Positions 1-2,696 of a stretch of 64,000 nt of DNA are shown piece after piece. Within the stretch, counting starts at the first letter, position 1. Each line of letters opens with the position of its first letter. The DNA comes from Tautonia plasticadhaerens (GTDB lineage: Bacteria; Planctomycetota; Planctomycetia; Isosphaerales; Isosphaeraceae), in the NCBI RefSeq assembly GCF_007752535.1, contig NZ_CP036426.1:2418001-2482000 (forward strand). The letters run 5' to 3'. Under the pieces are notes generated by a model that searched no databases, was not told where the DNA came from, and saw only the letters and a program-made list of their open reading frames with translations. Made by a program: the position numbers and the translations under genes.

Positions 1-267
1 CGGGCCGGCCCGGGCTCCCCTTCCATCCCCAAGGTCCTGGAGGCGATCCGCCGGCTGGCCGGCGCCGACGGCGCCTGCACCGCCGGCAACGTCGAGATCG
101 AGCGGGAGGCCGGCATCACCCGCCGCACCGCCCAGTACGCCCTGGCCCACCTGGCGCGCTCCGGTGCGATCCGGATCGAGGGCGGCACGCGGGCCCTCGA
201 CGGCCGGCGGATCATCCCCACCGACCCGGGCGGCGACGGCCCGACGCCCGGCCCCGGCACAAGTTAG
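1..267 (+). CDS. winged-helix DNA-binding protein, C-terminal part (partial at window edge)
   Basis: The frame is open from base 1 and stops at 265-267, so the start lies outside the window. The visible 88 residues contain a compact helix-turn-helix: a helix around KVLEAIRRLAG, a recognition-like segment around EREAGITRRTAQYALAHL, and a wing around SGAIRIEGGTR. This resembles the short winged helices that plasmid and phage proteins use to choose between regulatory or replication states. It precedes a zinc-finger gene and an HTH gene on the same strand, which suggests one accessory cassette. The exact family is not recognised. Confidence 0.5.
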   Translation, partial: RAGPGSPSIPKVLEAIRRLAGADGACTAGNVEIEREAGITRRTAQYALAHLARSGAIRIEGGTRALDGRRIIPTDPGGDGPTPGPGTS

Positions 268-745
268 GCGGGCCGACTTAGGCGGGCCTCGAGTTGCGCC
301 CTTGAGCGCAGCGGCGTGGCGGGGTAAAGTTGCCCGTTGCCGGCCCTGCGCGGATGCATCGCGTGGCCGGTATCGCCCGAGGGCGGGGTCGTCAGCCCCG
401 CCCGACTGGCATCCTTGTGATCCGGCCGGGTGGTCCGGCCGGTGCGATGCGTCGGGGTCGTCAATCCCGCCGCGTCCGTCGATCCGCCTTGGTAGTTCCG
501 GCCGGCCGCCCTTCTCAGCCAAAGAGCACGGGTGGTGGCCGACGCACGGGAGTGATCGAGTGTCCGCCTCAACCCGATCCGCCTCCGGGGCCCTCGGCCC
601 CGACGTTCGCCGTCCGTACGACGCTGGACATCTTACCACCCCTCGACCCGCGATCAAGCGGAAAAGTCCGCCCGGCCATCCCGACCTGGGGCCCGACGAG
701 CGGCTCGGCCCGCTGTTCGAAGAACCCGCCCCGGCCCCCCGCCCG
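268..745. other. intergenic region with hairpins, no convincing gene
   Basis: No frame here shows a recognisable protein; the open frames are GC-driven shadows. It holds a perfect 8-bp hairpin at 381-403 (GGGCGGGG, 7-base loop, CCCCGCCC) and a related but weaker sequence near 453-470 that repeats GGGGTCGTCA. A stem-loop lies at 504-540 and is listed separately. The region may carry regulatory sites for the downstream cassette. Confidence 0.4.
504..540. repeat. stem-loop A with conserved loop CAGCCAAAGAGCACG
   Basis: GGCCGCC (504-510) pairs with GGTGGCC (534-540), including one G-U pair. The loop contains CAGCCAAAGAGCACG (516-530). Nearly the same loop, lacking one A, occurs at 2475-2488 inside another 7-bp stem. 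The two elements are in the same orientation and bracket the zinc-finger and HTH genes. Confidence 0.5.
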
Positions 746-1159
746 ATGGCCCGCCCGTCGCAGCACCCCGACCTCGGCCCGGCGCTGGCCGCCTCGGCCC
801 TGGCCGACGTGCTGGGCGACGCCATGGCCCGGCACCTCCGCCGCTTCGACTCCGTCTTCCGCCTCGACGTCCAGGGGGCCGCCTGCACCGTCCACCTGGT
901 CGTCGGCTCCGACCCCAACCGGGCCCCCTCGCCGACGGTCCTGGCCTGGGAGGTCGACGAGCCCCGGCCCGACGGCCTGTCCCAGACCTTCGTCGTTTCC
1001 GCCCGCCCCGGCCTCTGCCCCCGGTGCTCCTGCGCCGAGTACGAGCGGGACTGGGACTGCCGGCACATCCGGGCCTTGCAGGACCTCGGCATCCTCGGCA
1101 GCCCCGTCGACGCCGAGACAGGTCCCGCCTCCCCCTGCGACGAGTGGGGGGGCGTGTAG
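746..1159 (+). CDS. small SWIM-type zinc-finger protein
   Basis: The 137-residue protein ends with a CxC...CxH pattern (CSC, about seven residues, then CRH), the signature of SWIM zinc fingers, which bind DNA or proteins. Before it is a small alpha/beta region rich in hydrophobic strands (FRLDVQ, CTVHLVV). The ATG at 746 is the first plausible start, but no clear ribosome site precedes it; an ATG at 824 or a non-ATG start further upstream are alternatives. The stop lies two bases before the ATG of the HTH gene, so the two are probably co-translated. The function is unknown; the context suggests a role in accessory-element maintenance. Confidence 0.55.
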   Translation: MARPSQHPDLGPALAASALADVLGDAMARHLRRFDSVFRLDVQGAACTVHLVVGSDPNRAPSPTVLAWEVDEPRPDGLSQTFVVSARPGLCPRCSCAEYERDWDCRHIRALQDLGILGSPVDAETGPASPCDEWGGV

Positions 1160-1161
1160 TC

Positions 1162-2520
1162 ATGACATGCCTCAGACCGCTCCCGGTCCCAGGCCCCGAC
1201 CCCGAGGGTCCCGACCTCCGATCGTTGCCCGGCGGGCCCGACTCGCCGTTCCTGACCTGGGACATGGTCCGCGACGACCCCAGGATCAAGGACGCCCTGC
1301 AAACCCTCGTCGAGAAGCTCAACAGCGAGACCTACTCGGGGAGCGTCGACTGCTGGCCGAGCAACCAGCGGCTCGCGGAGAAGATCCGACGGCACCCGAA
1401 GTACGTCGGCTCGCTGCTGCTCCGCCTGGAGCAGTGGGGCTACATCACCCGGATCGTCAAGGACTGCGACGACGACGACGCGAGGTTCGAGGAGCTGGTC
1501 CGCCGCGGCTACCGGCCGGGCTGGAAGGCCAAGGGCCGGATCCGCCCCCCACGGGTGATCATCCTCAACTGGAGGTTCCCGATGCACCCCTCCCGGGAAC
1601 AACACGAGGCTACCCCCCAATCCGGGCCGGGGGGTCCGCGCCCACAGGGAGGGGGGGTCCATACCGGCGCGGAGGGGGGGTCCGCGCCGGCGCGGGGGGG
1701 GGTCCGCGCCCACAGGGAGGGGGGGTCCATACCGGCGCGGAGGGGGGGTCCGCGCCGGCGCGGACCCGATCTTAAGAGATCCGATCTCTTAAAGGACGAA
1801 GTTGAAACTCACCATGGGGGAGGTGGTGACGTTTCACCGATCGATCGGGGGACGGGGGAACCCACCGATCCGGGCAGACCCCCCGGCGTCGAGTCCCGCT
1901 GCCTCGACGCCCTGGCCGTCGCCGACGGCGACCCCTCCGGCCCGAGGGGGCCGCTGGCGGTCCGGGCGGTCCGTGGCGCCGTGGCGGCACTGGCGGGGCC
2001 CCTCGGGTCGAGATCCGGGGGGATGATCGCCGAGCGGATCTGGCGGGCCGTCGACGACGACGGCGCCCCCAGGCGTCGGCTCCTCTCGGCCGCCCGCCGG
2101 GCCGACCGGGCGGTCGGCTACGGGATCGCCCCGGCCGAGGTCGGGCACGGCTTCGTGGTCGCCTGCGACGGCCACGACTTCCCGCAGCCGGTCCACCCCG
2201 AATCCGAGGCGGCCCGGGACGCCCGCCGGCTCGCGTCCGGCCGGCCCGATCGCCAGGACCGGCCCCCGCTGGGCTTCTCCGCGGCCCTCGCCCTGGGCGG
2301 CTCGCCGTTCGCCCCGCCCCCCAAACCGGGGCCGCCCCCGTCGAGGCCCCCCGCCCCGATGACGCGACCCACGCCCCCGAGGGGCCACGGCGCCAAGCAC
2401 ACCCCGGAACAGCTCCGGGCCCAGCTCGAGCTCCTGCGGTCGCGGTCCGCGCAGCAAAAACCGCCGGCCGCTCCCAGCCAAGAGCACGCGACCGGCGGTC
2501 GGGAGGGATCAATCCGATGA
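1162..2520 (+). CDS. HTH protein, possible replication initiator, with internal repeat array
   Basis: The protein has 452 residues. Residues about 30-105 look like a winged HTH of the kind found in plasmid replication proteins (segments NQRLAEKIRRHPKYV and LLLRLEQWGYITRI). From about residue 155 a Gly/Arg/Pro-rich stretch is encoded by six iteron-like DNA units (1631-1767). The C-terminal half is low-complexity with a short ordered region (AVGYGIAPAEVGHGF). The start at 1162 sits just after the stop of the zinc-finger gene. Because the repeat period is not a multiple of three, the copies are read in different frames, so the DNA rather than the peptide seems conserved. Replication function is inferred from the HTH plus iterons; a transcriptional regulator is the main alternative. 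Confidence 0.55.
   Translation: MTCLRPLPVPGPDPEGPDLRSLPGGPDSPFLTWDMVRDDPRIKDALQTLVEKLNSETYSGSVDCWPSNQRLAEKIRRHPKYVGSLLLRLEQWGYITRIVKDCDDDDARFEELVRRGYRPGWKAKGRIRPPRVIILNWRFPMHPSREQHEATPQSGPGGPRPQGGGVHTGAEGGSAPARGGVRAHREGGSIPARRGGPRRRGPDLKRSDLLKDEVETHHGGGGDVSPIDRGTGEPTDPGRPPGVESRCLDALAVADGDPSGPRGPLAVRAVRGAVAALAGPLGSRSGGMIAERIWRAVDDDGAPRRRLLSAARRADRAVGYGIAPAEVGHGFVVACDGHDFPQPVHPESEAARDARRLASGRPDRQDRPPLGFSAALALGGSPFAPPPKPGPPPSRPPAPMTRPTPPRGHGAKHTPEQLRAQLELLRSRSAQQKPPAAPSQEHATGGREGSIR
1631..1767. repeat. iteron-like array: six GGGGTCC units, period 22-23 bp
   Basis: GGGGTCC starts at 1631, 1654, 1677, 1699, 1722 and 1745, giving spacings of 23, 23, 22, 23 and 23. Units 1-3 (68 bp) are repeated almost exactly as units 4-6. 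The three unit types differ after GGGGTCC: GCGCCCACAGGGAGGG, ATACCGGCGCGGAGGG and GCGCCGGCGCGG. About two helical turns per unit is the spacing expected for a protein binding one face of the DNA, as replication initiators do on iterons. Confidence 0.7.
1772..1792. promoter_or_regulatory. perfect 9-bp inverted repeat next to the iterons
   Basis: TTAAGAGAT (1772-1780), spacer CCG, ATCTCTTAA (1784-1792). It is strikingly AT-rich for this region and lies five bases after the last iteron. It could be an initiator-dimer operator or part of an AT-rich unwinding site; this is inference. Confidence 0.55.
2456..2498 (-). terminator. stem-loop B with T-tract on the minus strand
   Basis: CCGCCGG (2461-2467) pairs with CCGGCGG (2492-2498). 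On the minus strand the stem is followed by TTTTT (complement of 2456-2460), the form of an intrinsic terminator for leftward transcription such as that of the tRNA. It lies inside the 3' end of the rightward HTH frame. The loop repeats CAGCCAAGAGCACG of stem-loop A. Confidence 0.5.
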
Positions 2521-2590: not shown

Positions 2591-2623
2591 CTCCCCCGGG
2601 GATCGTCAGGCCCCCGGGGGGAG
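2591..2623 (-). terminator. strong GC hairpin immediately 3' of tRNA-Thr
   Basis: CTCCCCC pairs with GGGGGAG, then after a one-base bulge GGGG pairs with CCCC, closing a loop around ATCGTCAGG. It begins one base after the tRNA discriminator base on the minus strand. There is no U-tract, so it may act in 3' processing or as a weak terminator together with the downstream stem-loop. Confidence 0.45.
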
Positions 2624-2696
2624 AGCCACCGAAGAGAGTCGAACTCTTAACCCCCGCTTTACGAAAGCGGTGCTCTGCCGATTGAGCTACGGTGGC
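2624..2696 (-). tRNA. tRNA-Thr(CGT)
   Basis: The minus strand folds into a full cloverleaf: acceptor GCCACCG/CGGTGGC, D-arm GCTC/GAGC, anticodon stem CCGCT/AGCGG with loop TTCGTAA (anticodon CGT, reading ACG), and a T-arm with GTTCGACTC. The discriminator is T and CCA is not encoded. Its 3' end faces the accessory region 1-2,520, the position at which integrative elements insert. Confidence 0.95.

Follow-up and report, generated by a model that had tools for sequence, protein, structure and literature searches.

The window analysed here is a stretch of 64,000 nucleotides of the Tautonia plasticadhaerens genome (contig NZ_CP036426.1), and near its start it carries a gene for a candidate O-like replication initiator, hereafter the initiator, with an array of phased GGGGTCC repeats and an AT-rich stretch lying within it (Table 1; positions are those of the window). 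The array-bearing element is a 36.5-kb siphovirus-type prophage lying between exact 45-bp tRNA-Thr repeats. The repeat corresponds to the 3' part of the tRNA-Thr gene, and its second copy lies 36.5 kb upstream, at a place without a tRNA gene. A tyrosine integrase gene adjoins the left attachment (att) repeat, and the initiator is the last predicted gene ahead of the right att site. The virion genes include those of the terminase large subunit (E 1.9e-149), the portal (E 5.7e-100) and the major head protein (E 2.1e-79). The element also encodes a head-tail adaptor (connector), a neck protein, a major tail protein, a tape measure protein, an HNH nuclease, a serine recombinase, an IrrE-type peptidase and a sigma-70 region 2 protein. 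Judged from its sequence, it is a temperate siphovirus-type prophage, with integrase, att repeats, HK97-type head genes and tail genes. The original prediction had seen here an integrated plasmid-like element at tRNA-Thr: the integration is borne out by the exact 45-bp repeat, but the plasmid-like character was rejected on gene content, i.e., the head and tail genes.

The six GGGGTCC units of the initiator gene start at positions 1631, 1654, 1677, 1699, 1722 and 1745, with spacings of 23, 23, 22, 23 and 23 bp. Tandem Repeats Finder reports the region both as 2.0 copies of a 68-bp period with 100% match (1629-1763) and as 6.0 copies of a 23-bp period (1629-1764). The three units of each 68-bp block differ outside the core, while GGGGGGTCC is kept at 22-23 bp. 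Among 2000 codon shuffles of the gene, the maximum was four GGGGTCC units (six observed) and one pair at 22/23 bp (five observed), and the array score was 43.2, whereas 300 codon shuffles reached at most 17.0. The predicted six units, their near-constant spacing and the 68-bp block present twice are thus confirmed, far beyond codon-shuffle expectation. The units occupy all three reading frames, and the peptide varies from one to the next (GGPRPQGG, GVHTGAEG, GGSAPARG, GVRAHREG, GGSIPARR and GGPRRRGP). A repeat at the level of the peptide was ruled out because several reading frames are used, in agreement with the proposal that the constraint acts on the DNA rather than on the peptide. The last unit is palindromic at 22 of 22 positions, another at 14 of 22, and the remaining four at 8-10 of 22, for a background mean of 6.8. 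The array is no dispersed repeat, since a search of the whole 9.4-Mb genome with positions 1600-1830 (E up to 1e-5) returned a single place, its own locus.

The AT-rich stretch begins at the end of the array. In the 36.5-kb element, the 50-bp segments with a guanine-plus-cytosine (GC) content of 42% or less form one cluster only, with starts at 1766-1769. The perfect AT-rich dyad that had been described there is present, with arms of 10 bp rather than 9 bp.

Table 1. Coordinates of the features discussed in the text (window positions).
Feature	Position	Strand	Remarks
O-like replication initiator gene of the prophage (predicted), 452 aa	1162..2520	+	weak profile matches; local O-like HMM
Predicted winged helix-turn-helix domain, residues 45-99	1294..1458	+	AlphaFold model; HTH_36 match at residues 63-95
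Iteron array	1629..1767	+	six GGGGTCC units; 68-bp block twice
Last array unit, perfect 22-bp palindrome GGGTCCGCGCCGGCGCGGACCC	1746..1767	+	
AT-rich segment, candidate DNA unwinding element	1766..1818	+	42% GC; element mean 74% GC
AT-rich dyad TTAAGAGATC-C-GATCTCTTAA	1772..1792	+	10-bp arms at 1772-1781 and 1783-1792, one base between
Upstream open reading frame, no family found, cysteine-rich by eye	687..1159	+	ends 2 bases ahead of the initiator start
End of another small winged-helix gene (complete frame L003:9719-10267)	1..267	+	resembles O-like N-terminal domains
att core, right end of the prophage	2622..2666	-	exact 45-bp copy at G000:C1:2384155-2384199
tRNA-Thr(CGU), integration target	2623..2696	-	

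The array covers residues about 156-202 of the 452 of the initiator, downstream of the winged helix predicted at residues 45-99. Among the Pfam families listed (E up to 1), the protein matched HTH_36 at E 4.3e-4 (20.5 bits vs the Pfam cut-off of 25, and 25.3 bits with its frame neighbours included) and, besides it, MarR alone (E 0.16); Phage_rep_O (PF04492) was not among them. The profile phrog_270, annotated as 'replication initiation protein', matched residues 34-100 at E 0.0032, and two O-like PHROGs matched at E 0.02-0.04. A local O-like hidden Markov model (HMM), made from 30 phylum proteins that match PHROG 270 and were picked irrespective of any DNA motif, found the initiator at E 3.6e-4 (Z 500). 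AlphaFold, given a 21-row alignment, modelled residues 1-151 at a mean predicted local distance difference test (pLDDT) score of 69.4, with block means of 86-97 for residues 31-100. It predicts helices at residues 45-55, 68-75 and 79-91 and a strand at 95-99, which together form a winged helix (residues 45-99) modelled with confidence.

The sixth-ranked match of the viral fold search was the 'Putative replication protein O' of Escherichia phage Min27 (probability 1.00, root-mean-square deviation 1.5 over 53 columns, E 0.059), and helix-turn-helix proteins made up many of the named matches listed. Many of the best 50 matches of the PDB fold search were transcription regulators. Neither fold search, viral or PDB, gave a match at E 0.001 or better. 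A sequence search of solved structures returned three matches (E 0.15-0.62), all to ribosomal L15, which we judged meaningless. The N-terminal part of the initiator is 11-23% identical to 20 sequences of the PHROG 270, 391 and 678 types. Its first 151 residues had no homologue besides itself in 59 genomes, and in 392 phylum genomes they retrieved themselves and five weak matches (E 0.002-0.01), the own genome being included in both sets. The whole initiator had no homologue in IMG/VR (searched with exact peptide patterns), in phages or in plasmids. The winged-helix prediction and the O-family matches, weak yet consistent, speak for an initiator of the O kind; the suggestion that this helix-turn-helix protein is the likely binder of the repeats is supported.

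We consider it likely that the segment is a lambda-O-type replication origin of the integrated siphovirus-type prophage. Two features of this type are seen in the window: the array lies in the coding sequence of the initiator after the predicted DNA-binding domain, and the lowest-GC 50 bp adjoin the repeats at 1766. According to published accounts, gene O contains the lambda origin (PMC6022878), with iterons and an AT-rich tract in the middle of the gene (PMC7466680). The lambda iterons are inverted repeats bound by O dimers, and an adjacent AT-rich region of 40 bp is opened (PMC5043065); the O-some consists of dimers on adjacent iterons (PMC3985674). We used lambda (NC_001416) as a positive control. 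Its four annotated iterons lie at residues 117-144 of O, with spacings of 20, 24 and 23 bp, and occupy three frames. The lowest-GC 50 bp of O start 5 bp past the last iteron. The array test described below found an array at residues 116-129 of O, with a score of 14.4 vs a shuffle maximum of 12.

In its anatomy the window segment is closer to the ori-in-O of lambda than to a plasmid iteron origin: its iterons, too, occupy the middle part of an initiator gene, are spaced at about 20-24 bp in several frames, and are followed at once by the lowest-GC stretch. Unlike those of lambda, they are of the GGGGTCC type, number six instead of four, and include a perfect inverted repeat in the last unit alone. 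The window element also differs in its high GC, in having no recognised P-like loader adjoining the initiator, and in giving no Phage_rep_O match. The oriL of SPP1, which lies inside gene 38, likewise combines repeats (direct ones in SPP1) with an AT-rich unwinding element within the initiator gene (PMC6316719); what sets SPP1 apart from the window element is another origin besides oriL, as well as a loader and a helicase of its own. In phage-inducible islands the origin is 3' of the initiator gene, a different layout (PMC6092414). The initiators of PHROG 270, 391 and 678 resemble the one studied here in their winged-helix-type match and in-gene array, found in 39 of 70 phylum genes and in 30 of 65 viral GGGGTCC loci (see below), and differ from it by their low N-terminal identity (11-23% for the 20 sequences) and by motifs that vary from gene to gene.

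To put the locus among its relatives, we sampled O-like genes by profile alone. A search with PHROG 270 at E 1e-4 gave matches in 117 of 392 phylum genomes, and our sample of 70 O-like genes consisted of the 30 loci returned and of 40 further ones taken by E-value out of a longer listing. The array test looked for a tandem period of 15-36 bp with a score more than 1 above the highest from 60 codon shuffles, and it left out short periods; a variant of the test flags at the shuffle maximum plus 2. An in-gene tandem array was found in 39 of the 70 O-like open reading frames (ORFs) vs 3 of 59 neighbouring ORFs (Fisher p 2.6e-10), 11 survey loci having supplied no control for want of a neighbour ORF of at least 170 codons. 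Periods were 17, 21-24 or 33-34 bp in 36 of the 39 arrays, and 20 were not multiples of three, as were two of the three arrays in control ORFs. Two flagged arrays (L220 and L221) have a period of 15, and that of L220 is partly low-complexity. The array started in the second half of the profile-matched segment or later in 34 of 39 cases. The GC minimum was lower downstream of the array in 28 of 37 genes (p 9e-5), a comparison in which one gene was kept from each of two pairs with an identical array (L388/L396 and L397/L407). The repeat motifs vary from gene to gene. These results suggest that the origin-in-initiator layout is common among related O-like genes. The window genome itself has 87 matches to PF07596 (E 1e-10), vs none in any of the 14 control genomes; such an expansion, along with a GC content of about 70%, is typical of a planctomycete.

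A 124-kb contig of the same genome bears a second O-like gene (G000:C4:97149-97445, L392), inside which palindromes form an array with a 23-bp period. Two units of the window array have the core GCGCCGGCGC in common with these palindromes; of the three occurrences of this core in the 64-kb window, two are in the array.

Starting from the motif instead of the profile, we found 65 viral loci with three GGGGTCC units at 20-26 bp. By the local profile, an O-like ORF runs through the array in 30 of them, vs 8 of 118 loci with the reversed motif CCTGGGG (p 8e-10); the reversed motif is richer in triplet-period repeats (69 of 118 loci vs 23 of 65), which somewhat flatters the viral contrast. The 30 O-like loci represent 29 distinct proteins, some of them closely related. 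GGGGTCC units fall in more than one frame in 28 of the 30, their orientation relative to the gene is mixed (14 vs 16), and the palindromy of the array is above that of the rest of the gene in 25. PHROG 270 matched 23 of 66 ORFs at the 33 loci where some or all spacings are not multiples of three, vs 3 of 69 ORFs at the 26 other loci, with spacing classes sorted by eye and up to three overlapping ORFs per locus, at most one of which is real. Six of the 65 loci were omitted from this comparison, five because they have no 120-codon ORF and one (L040) because it is the same contig as L023. In the genome of Sinomonas albida LC13, 22-bp-spaced GGGGTCC arrays occur on many scaffolds (e.g., L273, L280 and L299, none of the three O-like by the local profile); they are perhaps an unrelated dispersed repeat.

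We infer the following mechanism for a lambda-O-type origin at this locus. The predicted N-terminal winged helix would bind the six in-gene iterons as a cooperative complex. The bound complex would open the AT-rich stretch at 1766-1818, directly 3' of the array, as suggested by its position and composition, and the C-terminal part of the protein would recruit the replicative helicase, directly or via a loader. Because the origin would sit in coding sequence, the variable Gly/Pro/Arg-rich linker would be tolerated, the peptide being free to vary while the DNA is kept. The candidate origin of the original prediction is, in terms of sequence, supported by the array, by the adjoining GC minimum and by the survey of O-like genes.

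Several observations weigh against this assignment. Sequence kinship is weak: HTH_36 on its own is below the Pfam cut-off, the best PHROG match is no better than 0.003, and a six-frame search of the genome with PHROG 270 at E 1e-4 found two other genes and missed the initiator. The profile phrog_270 is also broad, with matches in 7 of the 14 control genomes. The C-terminal half of the initiator has no PHROG match, and none of the best 50 PDB fold matches has an E below 0.4. No helicase or helicase loader was found among the prophage proteins scanned, which do not include every ORF. Palindromy is poor in four of the six units (8 or 10 of 22 positions, for a background mean of 6.8). The genomes, IMG/VR, phages and plasmids searched yielded no homologue with a counterpart of the array. 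Among distant O-like genes, the expectation that homologues keep such repeats is borne out (39 of 70 have an in-gene array), though the array test detected none in 31 of the 70, and 19 of the 39 arrays have a period that is a multiple of three. Finally, just 6 of 120 listed chromosomal loci with GGGGTCC at 22-23 bp lie in O-like ORFs. GGGGTCC alone therefore proves nothing, and it was rejected as a stand-alone diagnostic marker.

The main rival to an origin is an autoregulatory operator array, by which the winged-helix protein would block transcription of its own gene and have no role in replication. Winged-helix proteins are often repressors, the transcription regulators among the best 50 PDB fold matches fit this role, and an in-gene array could serve as a roadblock. 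Yet about 470 bp of the gene precede the array, and an operator would not lead one to expect that the GC minimum of the element adjoins the array on its 3' side, or that the minimum is lower downstream than upstream in 28 of 37 relatives. We regard a purely regulatory array as improbable, although autoregulation and origin function may coexist. Very little weight goes to the reading of the element as an integrated plasmid, or something plasmid-like, with an iteron origin. Phased initiator-site repeats adjoining an AT-rich region also fit plasmid origins (PMC5043065), but the window element is a prophage: it holds virion genes (TerL, portal, capsid, connector, major tail protein and tape measure), and a plasmid search with the whole protein found no plasmid relative of the initiator. 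The last iteron is a perfect inverted repeat, which is lambda-like and unlike most plasmid iterons (PMC5043065). A phage-plasmid is conceivable in principle but made less likely by the integration of the element between tRNA gene repeats.

Equally far-fetched, in our view, is that the repeats are neutral, either coding sequence of a G-rich linker that was duplicated in tandem or a low-complexity linker at the peptide level, with no function in cis. The exact repetition of the 68-bp block probably arose recently, G-tracts slip easily, and 22-23-bp GGGGTCC arrays do exist in chromosomes outside O-like ORFs. One duplication, however, fails to explain why GGGGGGTCC is kept at 22-23 bp among units that otherwise differ. 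A period that breaks the reading frame, the rarity of arrays in neighbour ORFs (3 of 59) and the GC minimum that the array abuts also argue against neutrality.

The genes around the initiator and the integration site add the following. The protein of L003:9719-10267, two genes upstream of the initiator, matched phrog_270 (E 4.8e-5) and the Ren-like phrog_142 (E 0.0022) with its in-window part; for the complete ORF, Pfam gave no match at E 0.01. Further into the prophage (L003:5179-6513), an IrrE-type peptidase gene (PF06114) is followed by what is by eye a PIN-type nuclease gene, a possible toxin-antitoxin-like or immunity pair. A resolvase-type serine recombinase is encoded in the middle of the prophage (L003:3106-3789), despite the tyrosine integrase at the att end, and it may be an invertase or part of a nested element. 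A genome of the same genus (G003) has a tRNA-Thr gene with a single att core in 19.5 kb and shares the right-hand neighbours (89% identity for one of them). The 17 kb to the left of this att core gave no match to prophage ORFs. G003 is not a clean pre-integration site, because its left flank differs from that of the window genome.

A different HTH_36 gene with in-gene units is found in the chromosomes of the host family, where HTH_36 is matched (E 0.001) in 42 of 45 genomes. The copy of the window genome is at G000:C1:3604429 (L252; L425 7370-8401), and its host-family counterparts are in L232-L261. The HTH_36 genes at 29 of the best places align. With one 15-kb locus as anchor, the gene and its neighbours were present in the other eight of nine loci; it looks vertically inherited because gene and neighbours are shared across these nine 15-kb loci. 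Three 33-bp units of ACT-GGT-CCA-nnn-TCT-TTA (ACTGGTCCAnnnTCTTTA) lie mid-gene, where the third-position GC is 0.31 vs a median of 0.75, a drop that points to a constraint at the DNA level. Thirteen of the 29 genes were flagged by the array test, almost always with a period of 33 bp, itself a multiple of three; the copy of the window genome, whose units are degenerate, was not among them. The motif is not scattered over the window genome, since motifs of the ACTGGTCCAnnnTCTTTA type occur there at one mismatch in two places (one of them in the HTH_36 gene) vs three for the reversed control. A gene for a ParB_N/N6_N4_Mtase protein adjoins the HTH_36 gene, and the ORF just upstream has a weak match to MarR_2 (E 0.0093). 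The best dnaA match (G000:C1:436) is far from the HTH_36 gene, at 3.60 Mb.

These data allow a wider reading, in which an origin inside the initiator gene is the default for winged-helix O-like initiators well beyond lambda and the host-family HTH_36 gene is a domesticated member. We consider this improbable. If true, the HTH_36 gene would be a candidate phage-derived secondary origin, or another cis-acting initiator site, of a bacterial chromosome.

This type of origin is known already, from lambda and SPP1. What is new here is a member from a planctomycete prophage with its own iteron type, together with the survey. In the literature that we searched (titles and abstracts, with subscription papers mostly outside), we found no planctomycete prophage origin and no phylum-wide count of in-gene origins. 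The locus thus provides a base-level candidate origin for a prophage in a phylum without a studied phage origin in that literature. It also suggests a rule, by which the winged helix is followed by a tandem array, often of a period other than a multiple of three, and the array in turn by a dip in GC. The contrast between 39 of 70 O-like genes and 3 of 59 neighbours suggests that this rule holds widely, at least in this phylum, and it might allow candidate phage origins to be called from sequence alone.
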